Assembly (NCBI GenBank): GCA_014238205.1
Contig: JABABM010000024.1
Span: 1 to 38,894, forward strand
Reading direction: 5' to 3'
Source of the DNA: Phycisphaerales bacterium
GTDB lineage: Bacteria; Planctomycetota; Phycisphaerae; Phycisphaerales; SM1A02
DNA length: 38,894 nt
Position 1 is the stretch's first letter. Every line of letters begins with the position of its first letter. The position numbers were made by a program, and so were the translations under genes. Under the pieces are notes generated by a model. It was not told where the DNA came from and did not search any database. It saw nothing but the letters and a program-made list of their open reading frames with translations. Shown here in pieces: positions 17,992 to 28,130 of this stretch.

Positions 17992-19566
17992 TCAGTCGGT
18001 GAAGGCATGCCGGATGGCTACCAGGGGAGGCAGCCCTTCGCGGACTGCCGAAAGCTTGGCAGCCAGTTTCTCGATGAGTACCCCGTACTCCTGATCATAC
18101 AACGACTCCGAGTCAACAACGTGAAACTGCCAGAGCCCTCCTTGGAGCAGATTGTAATTCCGCAACTGTTGACCACGAAAGGCCGGGTCGGTGAGTCTCG
18201 CATGTGCCGTCGACCAGGCATTGACCGCCTTTTCACGTCTGCCAGCTTTCCACGCTGCATCCCCGAAGTGATCCAGCACGATTGGATCGCCCATCTCCTG
18301 CAAGCTGATCGATTCAGACAGAAGACTGAGTGCACCCGGGCCTCGTTCATCGGTCTCCAGACGGCCCTGCATGTACCGAAGCCATCCGACCGTATCAAGT
18401 ACCTCGGGCAGGGATGCACCGGATCTGCGCGCATCCACTTCCACCGACTCGATCATCTGGATGTCCCGGGGAGAAATCGGGCCGTCTTCAAGTGCGGAGT
18501 ATCCCAGGTTGTTCCGAGCGAGGACATGTGACGGATCATGAACAAGAGCCTCGGAGAACAGCCTGGCTGCCCCTTCCTTGTTGTTGAGCGTCGCGAAATC
18601 GGACCCCGCCTCATACAAGGCCTCGGCAAGGCCGATCGGCTTGTGCCAGTCCGGTGGCATTCCACGAAGCAGATCCCGTTCCTGGAGCGAGTTGACCAGT
18701 TCGATGACATCATCACCCCCACCTCCAGTCAGTGCAGACAGGAGAACGAACCGCATCTTGAGGTTGGCCGCCAAGTAGCCGGCATGCTGTCCTTCCGGTG
18801 TTTGACGCATGAGCAGCATCTTCGAGGCATCACGAGCAGTCTCAAGATCACCGATTGCAAAGAGTTCTTCGACCAGGGACATCCGTTGACGGCCTGATTC
18901 CAAGTCGCCCAGGCCCATTGACGATACATCCTCGAGCAGGCTGGCCCGCTCGTGTTCCAGCGAATCCGCAAGCTCTACATTGCCCAACTGCCGGAGAACA
19001 TGGATCAAGGCAACATCCTGGATGAGCACGTCCCGTGATGCAGGCATGGGATCTGGTTGGAGCATGCGACACCTCATGAGATGACCGGCCGCATCGACAT
19101 GTTTCTCAAGCATGAGTTCCAGCAAGCCGCACTTCAACAGCAACTCAGCATTCTTCACGGAAGGATCTGCAAGGGCATTGCTCCAGGCCTTGACCGCTGA
19201 TCGGTGTCGCCTGGTCTCAACCAGCAGATCGCCCAACTCTTCCCAGGCCGCCCTGTTGGACGGATCCAGTTGAGCTGCTTCTCGCCAGAACTGCTCTGCC
19301 GCTCGATACTGTTCGATGGCTGCCGCTTCACGGCCAAGAATGTAGGCCGTCGCACTGCGACGGCGAAGACCTCCTGGAACTGGATCATCCATTCCAGGTT
19401 CCTGCTCGTGGAGTTCCTTGAAGACCTCCCATGTCTCGGCAAGCAACTCAGCAGAGACTCGGTAGGGTTCTTCAAGCGAGGCGGTTGCAGTTTGACAACA
19501 GGCAGCCGCAATGACAGTGGCACTCACTGACAGAACCAGGTGCCTTGTCATCATGATCTTCATCAC
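17992..19566 (-). CDS. Secreted or periplasmic TPR-repeat protein
   Basis: About 524 residues. The N-terminus is a signal peptide (HLVLSVSATVIAAACC...ATAS). TPR-like helical pairs are seen in AIEQYRAAEQFWREAAQLDP followed by SNRAAWEELGDLLVETRRHR (about residues 80-120), and again near 340-375 (LFSEALVHDPSHVLARNNLG) and 430-460 (VLDHFGDAAWKAGRREKAVN). These form scaffolds for protein binding. GTG at 19566 overlaps the upstream stop (GTGA); an ATG at 19563 immediately follows and could be the real start. The neighbours are the HhH-GPD/histone-tail gene and yebC. Function unknown. Confidence 0.8.
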   Translation of the reverse strand: MMKIMMTRHLVLSVSATVIAAACCQTATASLEEPYRVSAELLAETWEVFKELHEQEPGMDDPVPGGLRRRSATAYILGREAAAIEQYRAAEQFWREAAQLDPSNRAAWEELGDLLVETRRHRSAVKAWSNALADPSVKNAELLLKCGLLELMLEKHVDAAGHLMRCRMLQPDPMPASRDVLIQDVALIHVLRQLGNVELADSLEHERASLLEDVSSMGLGDLESGRQRMSLVEELFAIGDLETARDASKMLLMRQTPEGQHAGYLAANLKMRFVLLSALTGGGGDDVIELVNSLQERDLLRGMPPDWHKPIGLAEALYEAGSDFATLNNKEGAARLFSEALVHDPSHVLARNNLGYSALEDGPISPRDIQMIESVEVDARRSGASLPEVLDTVGWLRYMQGRLETDERGPGALSLLSESISLQEMGDPIVLDHFGDAAWKAGRREKAVNAWSTAHARLTDPAFRGQQLRNYNLLQGGLWQFHVVDSESLYDQEYGVLIEKLAAKLSAVREGLPPLVAIRHAFTD

Positions 19567-20627
19567 TTCCTGCGTTTTTTTCCGGATGATTTCTTCTTTG
19601 AAGTAGCCTTCTTCTTCGCAGCAGGCTTCTTCTTCACAGCAGCCTTCTTCTTCTTCGCAGCTGCCTTCTTCTTCGGGGCTGCCTTCTTCTTCGGGGCTGC
19701 CTTCTTCTTCGGGGCTGTCTTCTTCTTCACAGCAGCCTTCTTCTTCGCAGCTGCCTTCTTCTTCGGGGCTGCCTTCTTCGCAGCAGCCTTGCTTGATTTG
19801 GATGCGACTGCCTTCGCTGCCGCAATTGCTGCGGATTCCTCACGAGCCTCGCTGCGTCGAGCGGATGCTTCGGCCTTTGCAAGCCTTCGAGCAGCTGCTT
19901 CCTCTCGATCGATGCGGCGAGCTTTTGCGGCAGAGGTCCTCTCGTTCCGTCGCATCTTGATCCGTTCATCGCGTTCACGGACATCCGAGATGCTTCGACG
20001 CTCAGCAGCCTGCTTGAGTCGACGTGACTCCTGGTCTACCCACGCCTGGAATGAGCGATGTGCTCCAACGCCATCATCAGACTTGATGTTCCGGCTCAGC
20101 CAGCCGGAGATCTCATCCACTGCTGCGGCAGGATCAATGGCATCCGATTCCACCAGCAACTGCTTCAGCTGTTCATCGACCGGCACGCCATGAATATCAA
20201 AGCAGCAACTGAGCAGGCGGGCGGCGGCGAAGGGAACGATGCCGTCAAGCGATTCCACGTACATTCGTATCTCGGAACGCTTCATGTCCTTCAGGCTGTC
20301 AAGAGAAATACCATGCTCACGGTTGTAGATGTCCCGCATCGTCGCACGCAGTCGCGTCGCTCGATCATGGGCCTCGTCACTGGTGTCTTCGGAGAGAACC
20401 ATGAGTTCATCCGGCGTGCAGACTCGAAGCTCGTTGTAATCGACGAGCTCCCCCTGAAGCTTCGTCCAGGCTGAGGAAGCCTTCACGCTTGTTGATTCCC
20501 AGAGCATGAAGGAATAGACAAGGACTCCGATTGGATCTTCCCGCTCCGGTTCCCTGCGGGGCTTTCCGGGAGAAAGCTTTCGAAGGATGGTGGTCATCTT
20601 CTTCGCATACTGCGTCGAGTTCTTCAC
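19563..20627 (-). CDS. HhH-GPD-fold protein with histone H1-like lysine-rich tail
   Basis: 354 residues. Residues 30-195 look like an endonuclease III-type helical fold: DPIGVLVYSFMLWESTSVKA, DELMVLSED..., LDGIVPFAAARLLSCCFD and VPVDEQLKQLLVES. The helix-hairpin-helix at 127-138 corresponds to the LPGVGxKTA of Nth, but the catalytic lysine position is Phe133. An aspartate (Asp151) is at the usual place. No Fe-S cysteines. Residues 200-265 are a charged coiled helix, and 280-354 a tail of AAPKKK/AAAKKK/AAVKKK repeats as in bacterial histone H1-like proteins. Probably binds DNA; glycosylase activity is doubtful. GTG start overlaps the rbfA stop (GTGA at 20624-20627); it overlaps the TPR gene likewise. 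Confidence 0.75.
   Translation of the reverse strand: MKNSTQYAKKMTTILRKLSPGKPRREPEREDPIGVLVYSFMLWESTSVKASSAWTKLQGELVDYNELRVCTPDELMVLSEDTSDEAHDRATRLRATMRDIYNREHGISLDSLKDMKRSEIRMYVESLDGIVPFAAARLLSCCFDIHGVPVDEQLKQLLVESDAIDPAAAVDEISGWLSRNIKSDDGVGAHRSFQAWVDQESRRLKQAAERRSISDVRERDERIKMRRNERTSAAKARRIDREEAAARRLAKAEASARRSEAREESAAIAAAKAVASKSSKAAAKKAAPKKKAAAKKKAAVKKKTAPKKKAAPKKKAAPKKKAAAKKKKAAVKKKPAAKKKATSKKKSSGKKRRK
19663..19770 (-). repeat. 18-bp coding repeat for the lysine-rich tail
   Basis: Units of GCCTTCTTCTTCGGGGCT (plus-strand sequence) occur at 19663-19680, 19681-19698, 19699-19716 and 19753-19770, with variant copies between and around them. Each encodes one (A)(P)KKKA-type hexapeptide. The near-identical DNA shows recent slippage-type expansion and makes tail length likely to vary between strains. 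Confidence 0.8.
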
Positions 20628-21046
20628 GTCGTCTGCTCCTGGGCACCCTGGTGTTCATCCGGGCCTGTTCCATGTGTCGAATTCGAGGCACGCTGCGCTT
20701 CATCACGGCGACGACCCTCGCTGATGGCACTCAGTACCTCGGCTTGCTTCTTCAATGTTCCATCGAGTTTGAATCGAAGGCGGGGCATCCGACGAAGATT
20801 CACCTTCGAGGAAACCTCCCGACGAATCCAGGCGCCCGCATGCTCGATCCCCTTGATCGACAGCTCAGCGTGCTTTTCCGGCAGGACCGAGCACCAGATC
20901 GTCGCATCGGAGTAATCAGGAGTTACTTCGACGCGGGTGACTGAAACCAGCCCACGCACACGTGGGTCATTCAGTCCACGTACGAGAACATCCTGTACTG
21001 CGCGGAGCAGGACCGACTCGATCTGGCTGGCGTGCTGGTTGGTCAT
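20624..21046 (-). CDS. rbfA: Ribosome-binding factor A
   Basis: About 140 residues from MTNQHASQIESVLLRAVQDV. The KH-like fold is seen in LNDPRVRGLVSVTRVEVTPD, YSDATIWCSVLPEK and a RMPRLRFKLDGTLKK segment, all RbfA signatures. It helps mature 16S rRNA and the 30S subunit. The ATG at 21046 is 14 nt after the infB stop. The C-terminal 25 residues are a polar extension. Order nusA-infB-rbfA is classical. Confidence 0.93.
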   Translation of the reverse strand: MTNQHASQIESVLLRAVQDVLVRGLNDPRVRGLVSVTRVEVTPDYSDATIWCSVLPEKHAELSIKGIEHAGAWIRREVSSKVNLRRMPRLRFKLDGTLKKQAEVLSAISEGRRRDEAQRASNSTHGTGPDEHQGAQEQTT

Positions 21047-21060
21047 GGTGTTGATGTCGT

Positions 21061-23769
21061 TCAGGTTCCTGGCTGGATGTGGTGCACCTTGTAGCACTCC
21101 AGCACATCTCCGACCTTGATGTCGTCATATCCATCGATCTTCATGCCGCATTCCTGCCCGGACTTCACTTCCTTCGCGTCATCCTTGAACCGCTTCAACT
21201 GTGAAAGCTTCCGATCGCTTTCGGTCACGATCTCGTCACGAGTAACGCGAACCATGGCATTCCTCTCAATCGTGCCTTCGGTCACGTAACACCCGGCAAT
21301 CATGCCGACCTTCGAGATCTTGAAGACTTCCCGAACCTCGGCATGACCGAGAATCTCAAGTCGCTTGATGGGATCAAGCAGGCCGAGGATCGCCTTTTCA
21401 ACATCGTTGGTGATGTCGTAGATGACATCGTAGAACCTGACATCGACTCCATGGTTCTCGGCTCCCTTGCGGACACTTCCGGATGCCGTGACATTGAAGC
21501 CGACGATGATGGCGCCCGAAGCCTCGGCGAGAGCGATATCGGAATCATTCACACCACCGACGGCAGTGTGCTTCACGACGACCGTGACGTCATCAGTCGT
21601 GCACTTCTCAAGAGAAGCCTTGAGCGTTTCCACCGAACCCTGGCAATCAGCCTTGACGATGATGGGCAGTTCCTTCTTCGATGCGCCTTCGAGTTTCTCG
21701 AAGATGTTGTCAAGCGTCACCTTCTCGGTTGCAAGGTCACGTTCCCGCTCAGTCTGGATTCGTTCCTGCGCAGCTGATTCAGCCTTGCGAAGGTTCTTGA
21801 CTACATAGAACTTGTCACCAGCATCGGGGACGACGTTCATTCCAGAAACCGTCACCGGCGTCGATGGAAGGCTGGCATCATTGCGATCACCGCGATCATT
21901 CACGATGTCACGAACTCTGCCATACCCACGACCGACGACGATGCAGTCACCCTTGTTGAGCCTGCCCTGCTGTACAAGGAGATTCGCAACAGGTCCGCGA
22001 CCATCCTCGATGCGTGATTCAATGACAACACCCTCCGCAGGACCATCGAAATCAGCTTTCAGGTCGAGCAACTGGGCCTGGTAATCAAGAACCTCAAGCA
22101 GATCCGTAATGCCTGTCTCCTCGGCGGCACTTGTCCGGACAATCTCAATATCACCGCCCCACTCCGTCGGGTTCAACTCGTGTTCCGCCAACTGTCCAAG
22201 AATGCGTTGAATATTGGGATCGGTCGCCTCGGCCTTGTCGATCTTGTTGAGCGCCACGACGATCGGCACCTCGGCAGCCTTGGCATGGTTGATGGATTCG
22301 ATCGTCTGTGGCATGACGCCGTCATCGGCAGCCACGACGAGCACGACAATGTCCGTCGCCTTGGCCCCGCGGGACCGCATCTCCGTAAAGGCTTCGTGCC
22401 CCGGCGTATCGATGAACGTGATTTCCCTTGATTCCTCACCTATCTCGACAGGAACTCGGAAGGCACTGGTTGCCTGGGTGATTCCGCCAGCCTCCCCATC
22501 AGCAACCTTGGCCTTTCGAATGCAATCCAGGAGCGAAGTCTTGCCATGATCGACGTGACCGAGAATCGTGACCACGGGGGAACGTGACTGTTCATCGTGC
22601 ATTTCCCGATCTTGGAACCCCTTGGCGATCTCGTCCTCGGCACTGACCTGTTCCACGATGGTCAGCTCGATACCCAGGATCTCCATCATCTCGACTGCCA
22701 TGTCCAATTCGAGCACGCTGTTGATGTCGACCGTGTGACCCTCCAGGAGAAACTGCTTGAGGATCAAGTTGGCCTTGATGCCACTCTCACCCGAAATAGC
22801 CTTGATCGTGATTGGTTCAGGAAGCGTGATAGGCCCACCACGTTCGAATGCCGATTGCGCTCGCCTTCCCCCCGTTCCTGAAACTCGCTTCTGGCTGTCT
22901 CGGCGGGCCGCCTTGAAGAAACCTCCGGCACGTGAAAGTCGACGTTCCCGCTCAAGAAGATCCTGCTTGCGCCAATTGGATTGCCCCTTGTCCTGCTGCT
23001 GTGGACGAGTGCTGCCACCTGCACGACCTGTCTCCTGCTTGGCACTGGCGCTTCGACGTTTGTTCCGACGACTTGTCCGTCGCCCTTCACCGGCCGGAGG
23101 CTCACCGGGAGCCCGTGGTACGGGGGGACCACCGGGAGCGGGAGCAGACCTGCCCGTATCGGGCTTGGGACCTCGCGCCGTACGTGGCTTGGGCACCACG
23201 TCAGGTGTTTCCACACGAATGACCTTCGGACCAGCCAACTTGGTCTTGACAGGCTTGTTGAGTGTTCGGCCCCGCTGGGGAGAATCATTCTCTGCCGCTG
23301 GAGGTTCAGCAGACGGTTCAGGCTTCACTTTTTCGGCCGGTGCTTCTTCTTCTCCCGGTTCTTCAACAGGAAGCTCTGAAACCTGCTCCTCGGGAACAGG
23401 AACAGGATCGGGAGCGGGTGGGTCTGCGGGAAGTTCCTCCTGGAGATCCGGGGCCTTGTCCTCCTCTGCCTGCTCGGCCTGCTCGGCCTGCTCGGCCTTG
23501 GAGGGAGCCTTCTTTCGCACCTTCTTCTTTGCCTTGGCACGTGCCTTCGACACATCAACCGGCGCAGCAACCTGCACGGTAGACGCGGACGTCCCACCCT
23601 CGTTGAACCATTCGCGAATAGTTGCAGCAAGACCTGCCGACAAAGTCGACATGTGATTCGAAACGGAGGGAATACCTTCCGATATGCACTTGTTCACGAC
23701 GTCCTTCGACGTAACACCAAGTTCCTTGGCGATCTGGTGAACTCGTTTTGTGCCTGCCTTCTTTGCCAC
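21061..23769 (-). CDS. infB: Translation initiation factor IF-2
   Basis: 902 residues. IF2N-type N-terminus ([20 protein letters not shown]), then a long acidic, proline-rich linker (about 75-310). The G domain has GHVDHGKT (404-411), [13 protein letters not shown] (454-461), NKID (508-511) and TSAAEETG, followed by domains II-IV. IF-2 brings fMet-tRNA to the 30S and drives subunit joining by GTP hydrolysis. Start is GTG at 23769 with AAGGAG 7 nt upstream. Three tandem 9-bp copies (23471-23497) encode an AEQAEQAEQ stretch of the linker. It lies 27 nt downstream of nusA. Confidence 0.98.
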
Positions 23770-23796: not shown

Positions 23797-25395
23797 TCAA
23801 CTCTCCTGGCTTGGTTCCTCTGCCGACTCCTCAGGTACGGTTGCAGTCTCAGACGACTGATCCCCTGCAGGCGATTCGCCGCCGGCTTCCTCGGCTGGCT
23901 CCTCGTCGACAACTTCCACATCGTCTGCCGATACTGGAACATCATTGTCGCCAGGCTCAGTTGCATCGAGAGCAGTCTCTTCGACAGCAGGCGAGGGCTG
24001 CTCTTCTGCTTCCGTTGCTTCATTGCCAGCTGGTTGCTCTTCCTGGTCCTGTGATGCAGCCGTCGTCGATTCATCAGCATTGACCTTCGGTGCAGAAGAA
24101 CCTCCTCCGAGTATCGAATCGGCAACCGCGTCACCTTCAAGATCCTGCTCTGTTCCAAGCAGGGCCTCCGCCGCCTTGGCTTCCTCGGCGCGACGCCGTT
24201 CCTCCTCTTCCTTTTCCTTCTGCTGTTCCTCGGCAACGACCTTGGCCCGCGAACTGCAATGCGCAATGACCTTGTCGGATATTTCCACCGGCATGCCGAC
24301 CTCGTTGACAAGGATGTCACTGCCGACTTCCTCGATATCGAAGACGCTGATCATGCCCAGAGCACCCATGCGATCGAGCATCTCATCCTCGACACCCTCG
24401 ATTGATCGGACCGACTGTTCAAGCAGTTCAAGGCTCTTGGCGAACTCCGCGGGAGTGAGAATGTCGATATCCCATCCCGTCAGGCGTGCTGCAAGGCGGA
24501 CATTCTGCCCACGTCGGCCGATGGCCAGCGACAGTTGATCATCGCGGACGATGATGGTGGCCCGTCCAAGTTCGAAACAGAGACTGACTTCCTCGACTTC
24601 AGCTGGTTTCAACGAGTTGGAAATGAGGATCTGGCTCGATTCATTCCAACGGACGATGTCGATCTTCTCACCACCCAGTTCGTCGACGATGTTGCGAATC
24701 CGGCTGCCTCGAACGCCAACACAGGCACCGACAGCATCCACCTTCGAATCAATCGATGAAACGGCGATCTTCGTTCGGAAACCCGGTTCCCTTGCCATCG
24801 CCTTGATCTCGATGATGTGCTCAGCGACCTCGGGTACTTCGGCCTCGAAGAGTCGCCGAATGAAGTCCTGATGGCTGCGGGACAGAACAACCTTGACTCG
24901 GCTTCCATCCTCGCGAACATCGCGAATGAGGCAACGAACACGGTCACCTGGATGAAAGACCTCTCCCGGAATCTGCTCGCTGCGAGGCATGAATCCTTCA
25001 GCGCGATCAACCTGGACGATGAGTGCACCACCCTCGTATCGATGCGCCGTACCAGTCACGACATCGCCAAGTCTCTTTGAGAACTCCTCGAGAATGCTTG
25101 CTCGCTCATCCTCCCGGAATCGCTGGATCATGACCTGCTTCGCGGTCTGTGCGGGAATTCGACCCAGGTCCTCGATCGGGATTTCTTCCTGTTCACCAAA
25201 TTCGTCGTGTCGCCACAGCCGGATCTCTCCCGAGATCGGCTCGATGCTGCAGGTGAACTCCTCGGTATCGAGCGAGTTGAAGTGCTTGCGAGCCGCACTG
25301 ACCATCGCCTGCTCCAGGTCATTGATCAGGATTTCCCGATCTATGTTCCTGTCTCGAGCGATGGAATCGATGATTCGAATGGTCTCTGGATTCAT
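23797..25395 (-). CDS. nusA: Transcription termination/antitermination factor NusA
   Basis: 532 residues. The N-terminal RNA polymerase-binding domain (about 1-110) is followed by an S1 domain (GDVVTGTAHRYEGGALIVQV...GFMPRSEQIPGE), then KH1 (EPGFRTKIAVSSIDSKVDAV, GACVGVRGSRIRNIVDELGG) and KH2 (SLAIGRRGQNVRLAARLTGW). A helix-hairpin-helix repeat follows, then a long acidic tail of about 130 residues rich in Glu, Ala and Ser, longer than usual. NusA controls pausing, termination and antitermination. ATG at 25395; rimP, usually upstream, is missing here. A structured RNA with a terminator-like hairpin lies in its leader, suggesting attenuation. Confidence 0.97.
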   Translation of the reverse strand: MNPETIRIIDSIARDRNIDREILINDLEQAMVSAARKHFNSLDTEEFTCSIEPISGEIRLWRHDEFGEQEEIPIEDLGRIPAQTAKQVMIQRFREDERASILEEFSKRLGDVVTGTAHRYEGGALIVQVDRAEGFMPRSEQIPGEVFHPGDRVRCLIRDVREDGSRVKVVLSRSHQDFIRRLFEAEVPEVAEHIIEIKAMAREPGFRTKIAVSSIDSKVDAVGACVGVRGSRIRNIVDELGGEKIDIVRWNESSQILISNSLKPAEVEEVSLCFELGRATIIVRDDQLSLAIGRRGQNVRLAARLTGWDIDILTPAEFAKSLELLEQSVRSIEGVEDEMLDRMGALGMISVFDIEEVGSDILVNEVGMPVEISDKVIAHCSSRAKVVAEEQQKEKEEEERRRAEEAKAAEALLGTEQDLEGDAVADSILGGGSSAPKVNADESTTAASQDQEEQPAGNEATEAEEQPSPAVEETALDATEPGDNDVPVSADDVEVVDEEPAEEAGGESPAGDQSSETATVPEESAEEPSQES

Positions 25396-25495
25396 TGTCT
25401 TCTCTGCATCTTTTTCTGGATGTCAAGTTGTTGAGTTGCCTGATTGTCGAGACGAACGTCCCACTCCTGGAATGACCGGATGCCCCAGCCCTACG

Positions 25496-25533
25496 AAAGA
25501 AACCACGGCGCCTCCCTGGTGGAGACCCCGTGG
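25496..25533 (-). terminator. Terminator-like hairpin in the nusA leader
   Basis: On the minus strand, CCACGG (25533-25528) pairs with CCGTGG (25508-25503), with an inner CTCC/GGAG stem around an ACCAG-type loop, and the stem is followed by TTTCTTT (25502-25496). It ends about 100 nt before the nusA ATG. Its first two bases overlap the closing helix of the structured RNA upstream. Confidence 0.6.
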
Positions 25534-25647
25534 TCCGTGTCGCCTGGACGATACCCCTCACAGTGAGGGGCGCGGCCCTGAGCGGTCCCGAGTTGGGATC
25601 ATGCTCAGAACAAGGCCGCAACCTCGCCCTTGCGCAATGCACGGACC
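25532..25647 (-). ncRNA. Predicted structured leader RNA upstream of nusA (unassigned)
   Basis: No ORF here looks like protein, but the minus-strand RNA folds well by eye. An 8-bp closing helix GGTCCGTG/CACGGACC (25647-25640 with 25539-25532) encloses two arms. Arm 1: GCGGCC (25619-25614) with GGCCGC (25577-25572), a 5-nt bulge on one side, continuing into CTGAGC/GCTCAG (25608-25603 with 25583-25578), capped by TCCC/GGGA. Arm 2: a perfect 7-bp hairpin CCCCTCA-CTG-TGAGGGG (25570-25554). A terminator-like hairpin abuts the 3' side. An alternative stem GCACG/CGTGC would compete with the closing helix. Inference: an attenuator or small RNA; I recognise no known family. Confidence 0.5.
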
Positions 25648-25650
25648 TCG

Positions 25651-26037
25651 TGCCAGGACCACTCTTCTCCGGCCCAGCACAGTGGACAAAACAGCATGGC
25701 GGCATTAACCGTCATGCGTGTTTAGCCACGTTTGATGGAACTCGCCCATCCGGCATCACTCCGTTTCTCTGAAAAACCGGACCCGAGGGCCCGGCAACCT
25801 ATGTACCAAGTTGTGCAGGGTATCCACCACCCCCCTGAACTTCAAGGCAGGCTCGCCGTGAAGCCCCGTTTTCAGGCCTCCAGGACGGTTCCATGTGAAC
25901 AAGCAACTGCTTCAAGGACAAATGCAACTCCATCTCCATGACACCCCGGTACTTGGGTCAGGAAAGTCCTCTACCTGCATGCATGCACACAGGCTTGCAT
26001 GGGCATGAAACGGGGTGCCCCGGAAGGCGATATCGAC
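25651..26037. other. Non-coding stretch between nusA leader and dsbD control region
   Basis: I see no supported gene; the ORFs here on either strand lack protein-like composition. The nusA/leader-RNA promoter should lie near 25690-25760 on the minus strand, but I find no confident -35/-10. Noted features: a GCATGC-rich palindromic stretch (TGCATGCATGCA, 25977-25988) and a GGGCCCGGCAACC run near 25788-25799 that only superficially resembles a SAM-riboswitch core. Confidence 0.4.
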
Positions 26038-26156: not shown

Positions 26157-26384
26157 ATGAAGCGAATCAAGAACATCATTCCGATCATGGTCCTTCTCCT
26201 TGCTGGAGCAGCCGTTGCCGCGGACCTGCCTGGTCGACCCGGCATCCTGCCCCTCCCCCTGCCTGCAGCCGAATCGGATGGGCCGAGGTTCAACGATTCA
26301 AGAGACTCGGTTCGTGTCACGGCCGTTGCCAACTCCAACGTCGTGGTCCCCGGGGAAGACATGGTCATCGCGGTGATCTTTTAA
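26157..26384 (+). CDS. dsbD: DsbD-like protein, N-terminal part (ends at in-frame TAA)
   Basis: 75 residues before a TAA at 26382-26384. Signal peptide at the start (MKRIKNIIPIMVLLLAGAAV, with AADLP after it), then DSRDSVRVTAVANSNVVVPG and EDMVIAVIF, the first strands of the DsbD alpha (nDsbD) domain. After the stop the same frame continues HDAGWHIHTDEPEIPPALGD, exactly what normally follows in this family. So this is the first part of one gene split at codon 76. The natural codon was probably an Asp, Glu, Gln or Lys codon. Confidence 0.75.
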   Translation: MKRIKNIIPIMVLLLAGAAVAADLPGRPGILPLPLPAAESDGPRFNDSRDSVRVTAVANSNVVVPGEDMVIAVIF

Positions 26385-26582
26385 CATGATGCGGGATGGC
26401 ATATCCATACGGATGAGCCTGAGATTCCCCCGGCGCTTGGAGATCCAGAGGACTACATAGACACTGAAATCTACTTTGAACTCGAGACTTCCGGCGGCGT
26501 CGAGGTTCATGAACCATTCATCCAGTGGCCCGAGGAACACGTCGTCAAGGTCGCCTTCGGGGGAACCCCGGTCGACTACGCC

Positions 26583-28130
26583 GTGTACGAAGGTCGCGCA
26601 ATCGCATACCTGCCGGTGACCATCGCCGACGACGCTCCGATTGGAACCGTGCAACTCAGGATACGGCCGGTCTACCAGGCATGTGATGAGACAAGTTGCC
26701 TTGCTCCAAGCCCGACACCCAGCGAACCGGGTTGGGACGAATATGGAATTGATATCGAGTTCAACGTCGTTCCACTTTCTGAAAAGTCGACATCAGCGAA
26801 TCCCGATGCTTCACTCTTCAGCGGATTCGATCCAACCGTCTTCGGTCGCATCCATGGTGGTGAAGCACCTCCGGAGAATGTCACCTTCGATGCATTCGGA
26901 CTGAACTTCACCCTTGATGCCAGCGGATGGGGTCTCCTGCTCCTGCTGGTCGTCGCGGCCTTCGGCGGATTTCTTCTGAACCTGACACCCTGCGTACTTC
27001 CCGTGATTCCAATCAAGATCATGGCGCTCAGCGCCGGCGGCGAGCACCGAGGTCGAACGCTACTCCTTGGCCTGAGCATGATGCTCGGCATCATCTGCTT
27101 CTGGCTTGTAATAGGTGGACTGATTGCGGGCGCGGCAATCACCGCCATCAACCAGCTCTTCCAGTACCCGGCGTTCACCATCGCCGTGGGCCTGTTCATC
27201 GGGTTGATGGCCATCGGCATGTGCGGGCTGTTCACGATCCGGCTGCCGGGCAAGCTGTACATGGTCAATCCCAAGCACGACACGATTCATGGGTCGTTTC
27301 TCTTCGGGGTCATGACCGCAGTACTTTCGACACCATGCACGGCTCCCTTCATGGGCGCCGCGGCCGCCTGGGCGACGACGGAACCACCCTCCACGACGCT
27401 GCTGGTCTTCACCTGCATCGGGTTTGGAATGGCCCTGCCTTACCTTGTGCTCGCAGCCTTCCCCGGGCTTACGAATCGCATGCCCAAGGCCGGGCCTGCC
27501 AGTGAACTCATCAAGCAGGTCATGGGCATTCTCATGCTTGCCGCAGCGGCCTATTTCGTCGGTGTCGGACTCAGTGGACTCATGGTCACACCACCTGAGC
27601 CACCAGGCCGAAGCTATCTCTGGATCGTCAGTTTCGTGGTAGTTGCCGGTGGTGCGTGGCTGGTGATCCGCACGGGGATGATCTGTCGTTCAATTGCCCA
27701 ATATCTCCTCTTCGGTGGCATCGGCTGCCTGATGATGGCGACCGCGGTCGTTGGTGGAATCAAGTTGACCGACAAGGGGCCCATCGACTGGGTGTACTAC
27801 CAGCCGGATCGGTACGAAGAGGCCCTCGAGGAAGGAAACGTCGTCGTCCTCGAGTTCACCGCCGAATGGTGCCTCAACTGCAAGGCGTTGGAACAGACGG
27901 TCCTGTCCGACCCGACTGTCGTTGCGCTCTTCGAAGATGGAGCCGCCGTCCCCATGAAGGTCGACCTCACCGGCAACAATACGTCCGGCAACGAGAAACT
28001 CGCTGAAGTAGGCGGATTGCGCATCCCCCTGCTCATCGTGATTGCACCTGACGGCCGAGAGGTGTTCCGTGGCGACTTCTACACGGTCGAACAGGTCATC
28101 AATGCCGTGCGAACTGCTGGAGGATCCTGA
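26583..28130 (+). CDS. dsbD: Thiol:disulfide interchange protein DsbD, main part (interrupted gene)
   Basis: 515 residues from a GTG at 26583; the frame is actually open from 26385, directly after the TAA that splits the gene, with no ATG between. Full length would be about 657 residues. nDsbD end (RIRPVYQACDETSCLAP, both active cysteines), then eight membrane helices with the redox cysteines LNLTPCVLPVIPIKIMA and VLSTPCTAPFMGAAAAW, and a C-terminal thioredoxin domain with EFTAEWCLNCKALEQTVL. DsbD moves electrons from cytosolic thioredoxin to the periplasm for disulfide reduction and cytochrome c maturation. GTG 26583 has no ribosome-binding site, so expression of this part depends on readthrough or on the stop being an error. 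A gene of the LOG family starts 5 nt after the stop. Confidence 0.9.
   Translation: MYEGRAIAYLPVTIADDAPIGTVQLRIRPVYQACDETSCLAPSPTPSEPGWDEYGIDIEFNVVPLSEKSTSANPDASLFSGFDPTVFGRIHGGEAPPENVTFDAFGLNFTLDASGWGLLLLLVVAAFGGFLLNLTPCVLPVIPIKIMALSAGGEHRGRTLLLGLSMMLGIICFWLVIGGLIAGAAITAINQLFQYPAFTIAVGLFIGLMAIGMCGLFTIRLPGKLYMVNPKHDTIHGSFLFGVMTAVLSTPCTAPFMGAAAAWATTEPPSTTLLVFTCIGFGMALPYLVLAAFPGLTNRMPKAGPASELIKQVMGILMLAAAAYFVGVGLSGLMVTPPEPPGRSYLWIVSFVVVAGGAWLVIRTGMICRSIAQYLLFGGIGCLMMATAVVGGIKLTDKGPIDWVYYQPDRYEEALEEGNVVVLEFTAEWCLNCKALEQTVLSDPTVVALFEDGAAVPMKVDLTGNNTSGNEKLAEVGGLRIPLLIVIAPDGREVFRGDFYTVEQVINAVRTAGGS

Follow-up and report, generated by a model that had tools for sequence, protein, structure and literature searches.

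The leader of nusA in this Phycisphaerales bacterium contains an ORF of two codons, a start and one sense codon followed directly by a stop, that we call the mini-ORF. Together with its Shine-Dalgarno sequence (SD), it lies between the two strands of an antiterminator helix that covaries among relatives. From these sequence comparisons we favor, with moderate confidence, the view that the leader is a cis-acting attenuator of nusA-infB-rbfA that senses translation initiation through this minimal ORF. The new part would be the two-codon ORF as a sensor; the direction and the input of the control are predictions.

The operon and the fold of its leader

The window, the whole 38,894-nucleotide stretch that was analyzed, carries nusA, infB and rbfA (Table 1). 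The leader is on the minus strand, and coordinates therefore decrease along its RNA from 5' to 3'. The genome yielded no rimP, in line with the initial annotation that this gene is missing from its usual place. A consensus scan found no promoter for the leader; one weak match, TTGAAG...GATACC at 25845-25819, can be made out by eye. Downstream of rbfA is an ORF (19563-20627, minus strand) with a weak DNA-glycosylase-like N-terminus that scores below the family cut-off and a long, repetitive tail rich in lysine and alanine. A divergent DsbD-like gene (26157-28130, plus strand) can be read as one frame from the ATG at 26157 apart from a single in-frame TAA at 26382-26384 (VIAVIF*HDAGWHIHTDEP), which reflects either a nonsense mutation or an error in the assembly.

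Table 1. Features of the nusA leader and operon, in the direction of transcription
Feature	Coordinates	Strand	Sequence	Basis and remarks
uORF1	25705..25749	minus	14 codons, ATG ... CAT GAC GGT TAA (MGEFHQTWLNTHDG)	Position and length test
Hairpin h1	25694..25717	minus	GCATGACGGTTAATGCCGCCATGC	Loop holds the uORF1 stop codon
Competing stem	25653-25639	minus	GCACG-AGGUC-CGUGC (GCACG/CGTGC)	Takes half of the P1 5' strand
P1 antiterminator, 5' strand	25647-25640	minus	GGUCCGUG	Located in the window; kept or covarying in relatives
SD of the mini-ORF	25622..25625	minus	GAGG	Sequence; 8 nt before the start
Mini-ORF	25605..25613	minus	TTG-TTC-TGA (start, one sense codon, stop)	86/108 order leaders; codon-level controls
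Hairpin h2	25608-25578	minus	CUGAGC...GCUCAG	Fold and near-relative alignment; 5' arm starts within the mini-ORF
Hairpin h3	25570-25554	minus	CCCCUCACUGUGAGGGG (CCCCTCACTGTGAGGGG)	Fold
P1 antiterminator, 3' strand	25539-25532	minus	CACGGACC	Overlaps the terminator 5' arm
Intrinsic terminator	25536-25496	minus	GGACCACGG...CCGUGGUUUCUUU, U-rich tail	About 100 nt upstream of nusA
nusA	23797..25395	minus		NCBIfam TIGR01953, 346 bits, above cut-off; operon gene 1, leader-controlled
infB (IF2)	21061..23769	minus		TIGR00487, 675 bits, above cut-off; operon gene 2
rbfA	20624..21097	minus		TIGR00082, 67 bits, above cut-off; operon gene 3

Folding of the minus strand from 25490 to 25665 gave -94 kcal/mol compared to -72.9 +/- 4.1 for shuffled sequences (z -5.1, with no shuffle as good). 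We located every part of the fold described in the initial annotation, namely its closing helix (P1), competing stem, two arms and terminator. In the window, P1 has 8 bp and pairs perfectly. Short stems like GCACG/CGTGC can be read by eye at the same place in aligned relatives. P1 and the 5' arm of the terminator have GGACC in common. Counting the outer G-U and A-U pairs of the terminator, the overlap is five bases; leaving them out, it is about two, as originally proposed. Since they share these bases, the antiterminator and the terminator are mutually exclusive. An RNA ending before the 3' arm of the terminator has a minimum free energy (MFE) fold (-79.0) that contains P1. For the full-length RNA, the terminator state (-96.2) is preferred over the P1 state (-94.0) by 2.2 kcal/mol and, within the folding model, a gap of this size is the balance that an attenuator would need. 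The MFE fold of the window has an alternative closing helix between GAGUGGUCC (25664-25656) and GGGACCGCUC (25589-25580). This helix is not conserved in a genome of the same genus (G001) and was therefore set aside.

The initial annotation had found that no known class fits this RNA, and our searches agree. At gathering score, neither the window nor 20 loci matched Rfam, and 17 loci with a nusA leader had no match even when hits up to E=1 were admitted. There was no 6S RNA match anywhere in the genome and the best tmRNA match was on another contig, outside the nusA leader. With no family match at the locus, we rejected 6S RNA, tmRNA and other Rfam RNAs as the identity of the leader.

Conservation of the leader and of P1

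We compared nusA leaders at increasing distance: within the family, in six families of the order, in other orders of the same class and in the wider phylum. Terminators were identified as a hairpin followed by a U-rich tail, blind to ORFs, and approximately 20 were placed by hand. Across the six families, and beyond the order in the class, nusA is preceded by a leader with a terminator. In the order, the terminator stem has RGGYCACG as its 5' arm and CGTGRCCY as its 3' arm. Most leaders sampled from other orders and classes of the phylum (L118-L177) have an AGTGGG...CCCACT stem and then a U-run before nusA. By its sequence, this hairpin is a wide rimP-leader-like terminator that is unmatched by Rfam.

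The initial annotation had proposed a covariation search in the regions upstream of nusA in relatives, and P1 withstood it. All P1 cells are paired in five close relatives, with one two-sided (doubly compensatory) and two one-sided changes in these five sequences only; slid controls were 33-48% paired. All eight pairs form in 30 of 85 order loci, compared to 12.7 when 3' strands were swapped between genera, and 8/8 pairing occurs in only about 40% of genera. Over 52 genera, the fit between a leader's own two strands was better than after permutation (z -5.3 and -6.0); taken by itself, the strand beyond the conserved GGYC core gave a weak signal (z -1.9, p=0.03). The fit also beats shuffled upstream sequence (p=1e-4), and freeing the terminator arm costs 7.1 kcal/mol versus 5.4 in shuffled leaders (p=3e-4).

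These observations bear on the suggestion, made initially as one of two possibilities, that the RNA is a free-standing small RNA that ends at the terminator, with trans targets of its own and an incidental position next to nusA. It is a strongly folded RNA with a terminator at its end, as such an RNA would be. However, the element stays beside nusA across the order and the class, competition between an antiterminator and a terminator is the design of a leader, and there is no Rfam match, with no 6S RNA in the genome and tmRNA elsewhere. We regard a free-standing small RNA as highly improbable. The other possibility, an attenuator layout that might respond to translation, gains from the conservation upstream of nusA, the covariation of P1 and the mini-ORF. 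The attenuator reading of the leader is thus supported.

A two-codon ORF between the antiterminator strands

We searched the 107 nt before each terminator for an SD followed by NTG, a set number of sense codons and a stop, using dinucleotide shuffles as the null. ORFs with one sense codon were present in 86 of the 108 order leaders compared to 2.5 expected; the strict pattern is missing from the other 22. Related genomes are not independent, so counts were also weighted by genus, which gave 45.5 of 58 versus 1.3 expected. SD-led ORFs with 0, 2, 3, 4 or 5 sense codons were near background (2, 7, 2, 4 and 3 leaders, with about 2 expected for each), as was the one-codon pattern farther upstream in the same leaders (8 versus 6.5). 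The SD is 6-10 nt from the start across the order and the start is a median of 63 nt before the terminator. In the clade of the window, the P1 5' strand starts 34 nt before the start of the mini-ORF.

Near-miss codons were found in 0-8 loci overall. When the third codon was varied, a stop was found in 86 order loci, TGG in 0, TGC/TGT in 2 and CGA/AGA/GGA in 4. Likewise, the first codon was NTG in 86, CTG in 3 and ATT in 0. Among the mini-ORFs there are 31 distinct 9-mers, which use three start codons, all three stops and 23 sense codons. Therefore, it is the reading as start, one codon and stop that is conserved; the bases themselves are not fixed. We rejected an antiterminator made by the mini-ORF pairing directly with the 5' arm of the terminator, since nascent-RNA folding gave this pairing at 3% of loci.

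Leaders from other orders of the class (37 in all) had 4 ATG ORFs with no sense codon, 9 with one and 6 with two (0.7, 0.4 and 0.5 expected), for a total of 19 matches versus 1.6 expected, and ORFs with 3-7 sense codons were at background. Elsewhere in the phylum, ATG-TAG was found in 2 leaders compared to 0.2 expected. Some genera of the order depart from the standard form. In the nusA leaders of genus g61 (L083, L105, L106 and L073), the mini-ORF consists of just a start and a stop (TTG-TAG or CTG-TAG), with L073 keeping the SD and stop and missing the start codon. In genus g60 (L094, L095, L099, L100 and L102), the standard mini-ORF is mostly missing and several leaders have GGAGGCGCC...GGCGCC hairpins that would mask the SD.

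The stop codon is constrained as strongly as the start and start-stop ATG-TAG forms are present in the class. This could mean that the same switch has a different input, with the ribosome on the mini-ORF reporting the capacity of release factor, ribosome recycling or peptidyl-tRNA hydrolase; drop-off is caused by minigenes according to a review (PMC8012679). Against this, all three stops are used, so that no single release factor is favored, and the operon encodes IF2 and RbfA and no release or recycling factors. A sensor of release or drop-off capacity is, in our estimate, quite unlikely.

An upstream ORF that ends in a hairpin

A second short ORF, uORF1, is located farther upstream and has its stop in hairpin h1. 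A hairpin resembling h1 (CATGACG...CGTCATG) is found in many relatives, often with the stop of uORF1 at it. In a length test of SD-led upstream ORFs, only one length stood out sharply, 13 codons following the start, which is the length of uORF1. ORFs of this length occurred at 31 loci compared to 3.6 expected, or 17.0 genera versus 1.9. We relied on this length test because anchoring uORF1 to h1 automatically proved too crude (18 versus 8.0). Arrest by a nascent uORF1 peptide was rejected as the peptides vary and have little in common beyond the end encoded by h1.

The initial annotation had named a conserved protein frame through the region as evidence against a structured RNA. We noticed no conserved long frame, but the region is crossed or adjoined by two short ORFs that are conserved. 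The mini-ORF and uORF1, which were missed at first, are by sequence comparison the most conserved part of the leader, and they change what the leader most likely senses. Their SD, start and stop give a strong comparative signature for predicted translation.

Comparison with known attenuators

In leader-peptide attenuators such as trp, his, erm and tnaC, a ribosome on a short leader ORF determines whether the antiterminator or the terminator forms. These ORFs are several to dozens of codons long and stalling on them senses amino acids or drugs. By contrast, the mini-ORF has one sense codon and its identity varies (23 codons), which makes sensing of a specific codon or peptide unlikely.

Naville and Gautheret (2010, PMC2965389) describe the rimP-leader as an attenuator of rimP-nusA-infB. 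The leader studied here is alike in belonging to the same operon and in having a terminator shortly before the first gene (nusA here, with infB downstream). In addition, the GGGc...gCCC stem of the rimP-leader, as given there, resembles AGTGGG...CCCACT of other orders and classes in the phylum. It is unlike the rimP-leader in that rimP is missing, no Rfam covariance model matches and the conserved GGGc(...)gCCC terminator stem is absent, the stem being GGACCACGG...CCGUGGUUU in the window and RGGYCACG...CGTGRCCY in the order. In the accessible portion of that paper, no antiterminator was seen in the general form of the rimP-leader and an ORF is not reported (PMC2965389). We searched the E. coli rimP leader for an SD-led mini-ORF and found none. 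The leader of this bacterium is best read as a variant of the nusA-infB attenuators that has a proposed new sensor part, the two-codon ORF.

In B. subtilis, termination in the nusA leader is stimulated by NusA and thereby autoregulates NusA (cited in PMC12288461), and the E. coli operon is repressed by NusA (cited in PMC2965389). By analogy with these two species, NusA-responsive control of the leader is plausible. There, as here, a leader terminator governs transcription into nusA, and other classes of the phylum have terminators before nusA with no mini-ORF. In its full form, this explanation would have NusA stimulate termination in negative feedback on nusA, with the short ORFs just tuning folding or coupling and not sensing initiation. 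However, the B. subtilis terminator is sensed by a protein, whereas a covarying antiterminator flanks an SD and a two-codon ORF in the present leader. Negative feedback by NusA leaves unexplained this antiterminator, the constraint on NTG and stop, and the fixed length of the ORF (one sense codon in the order, 0-2 in the class). We consider it an unlikely full account, albeit one with some weight.

Start-stop and minigene elements have been described in other contexts. These include the AUGUAA of Arabidopsis NIP5;1 (PMC11915504) and sites of the start-stop type in E. coli and C. jejuni (PMC11955535). The mini-ORF would resemble such elements, including the lambda bar minigenes, in having initiation beside a stop, a short peptidyl-tRNA and a ribosome held at the start. 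In the literature searched, coverage of which was partial so that a prior description is possible, we found no conserved start-stop element inside a bacterial transcription attenuator.

A predicted switch that senses initiation

Based on this arrangement, we infer that a ribosome on the mini-ORF biases P1. A ribosome that initiates there would linger owing to slow release or drop-off after one peptide bond. Sitting in the loop of P1, it would open h2 and block closure of P1, the terminator would form, and the output of NusA, IF2 and RbfA would fall. Under weak initiation, with IF2 or free 30S subunits scarce or in the cold, the mini-ORF would be empty, P1 would close first and transcription would enter the operon. 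When the ribosome footprint on the mini-ORF was blocked in a base-pairing model, there was a small effect on P1 (6.7 versus 7.1 kcal/mol). Blocking the footprint hardly weakens P1, and the link from the mini-ORF to P1 thus rests on steric reasoning.

In work from 1998 attributed to Karimi (cited as reference 47 of PMC10192219), IF2 with IF1 reportedly removes short peptidyl-tRNAs from the P site. Because IF2 both drives initiation and, with IF1, removes these, it would be a direct input of the switch. NusA may act on the same leader terminator. Since other classes have nusA terminators without a mini-ORF, NusA feedback may be the older layer. More tentatively, it is possible that a start, zero to two codons and a stop form a class-wide sensor in Planctomycetota of initiation and early drop-off, through which IF2 would feed back on the synthesis of IF2, NusA and RbfA.

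The mini-ORF provides strong comparative evidence for minimal ORFs of the start-stop type as selected regulatory parts in bacteria. Such ORFs escape notice through ORF finders and length cut-offs. The nusA-infB attenuator has been called the most ubiquitous of transcription attenuators, and NusA was its suspected sensor. A two-codon ORF beside a covarying antiterminator would be a second, testable sensor, and it would tie the levels of IF2 and NusA to initiation.
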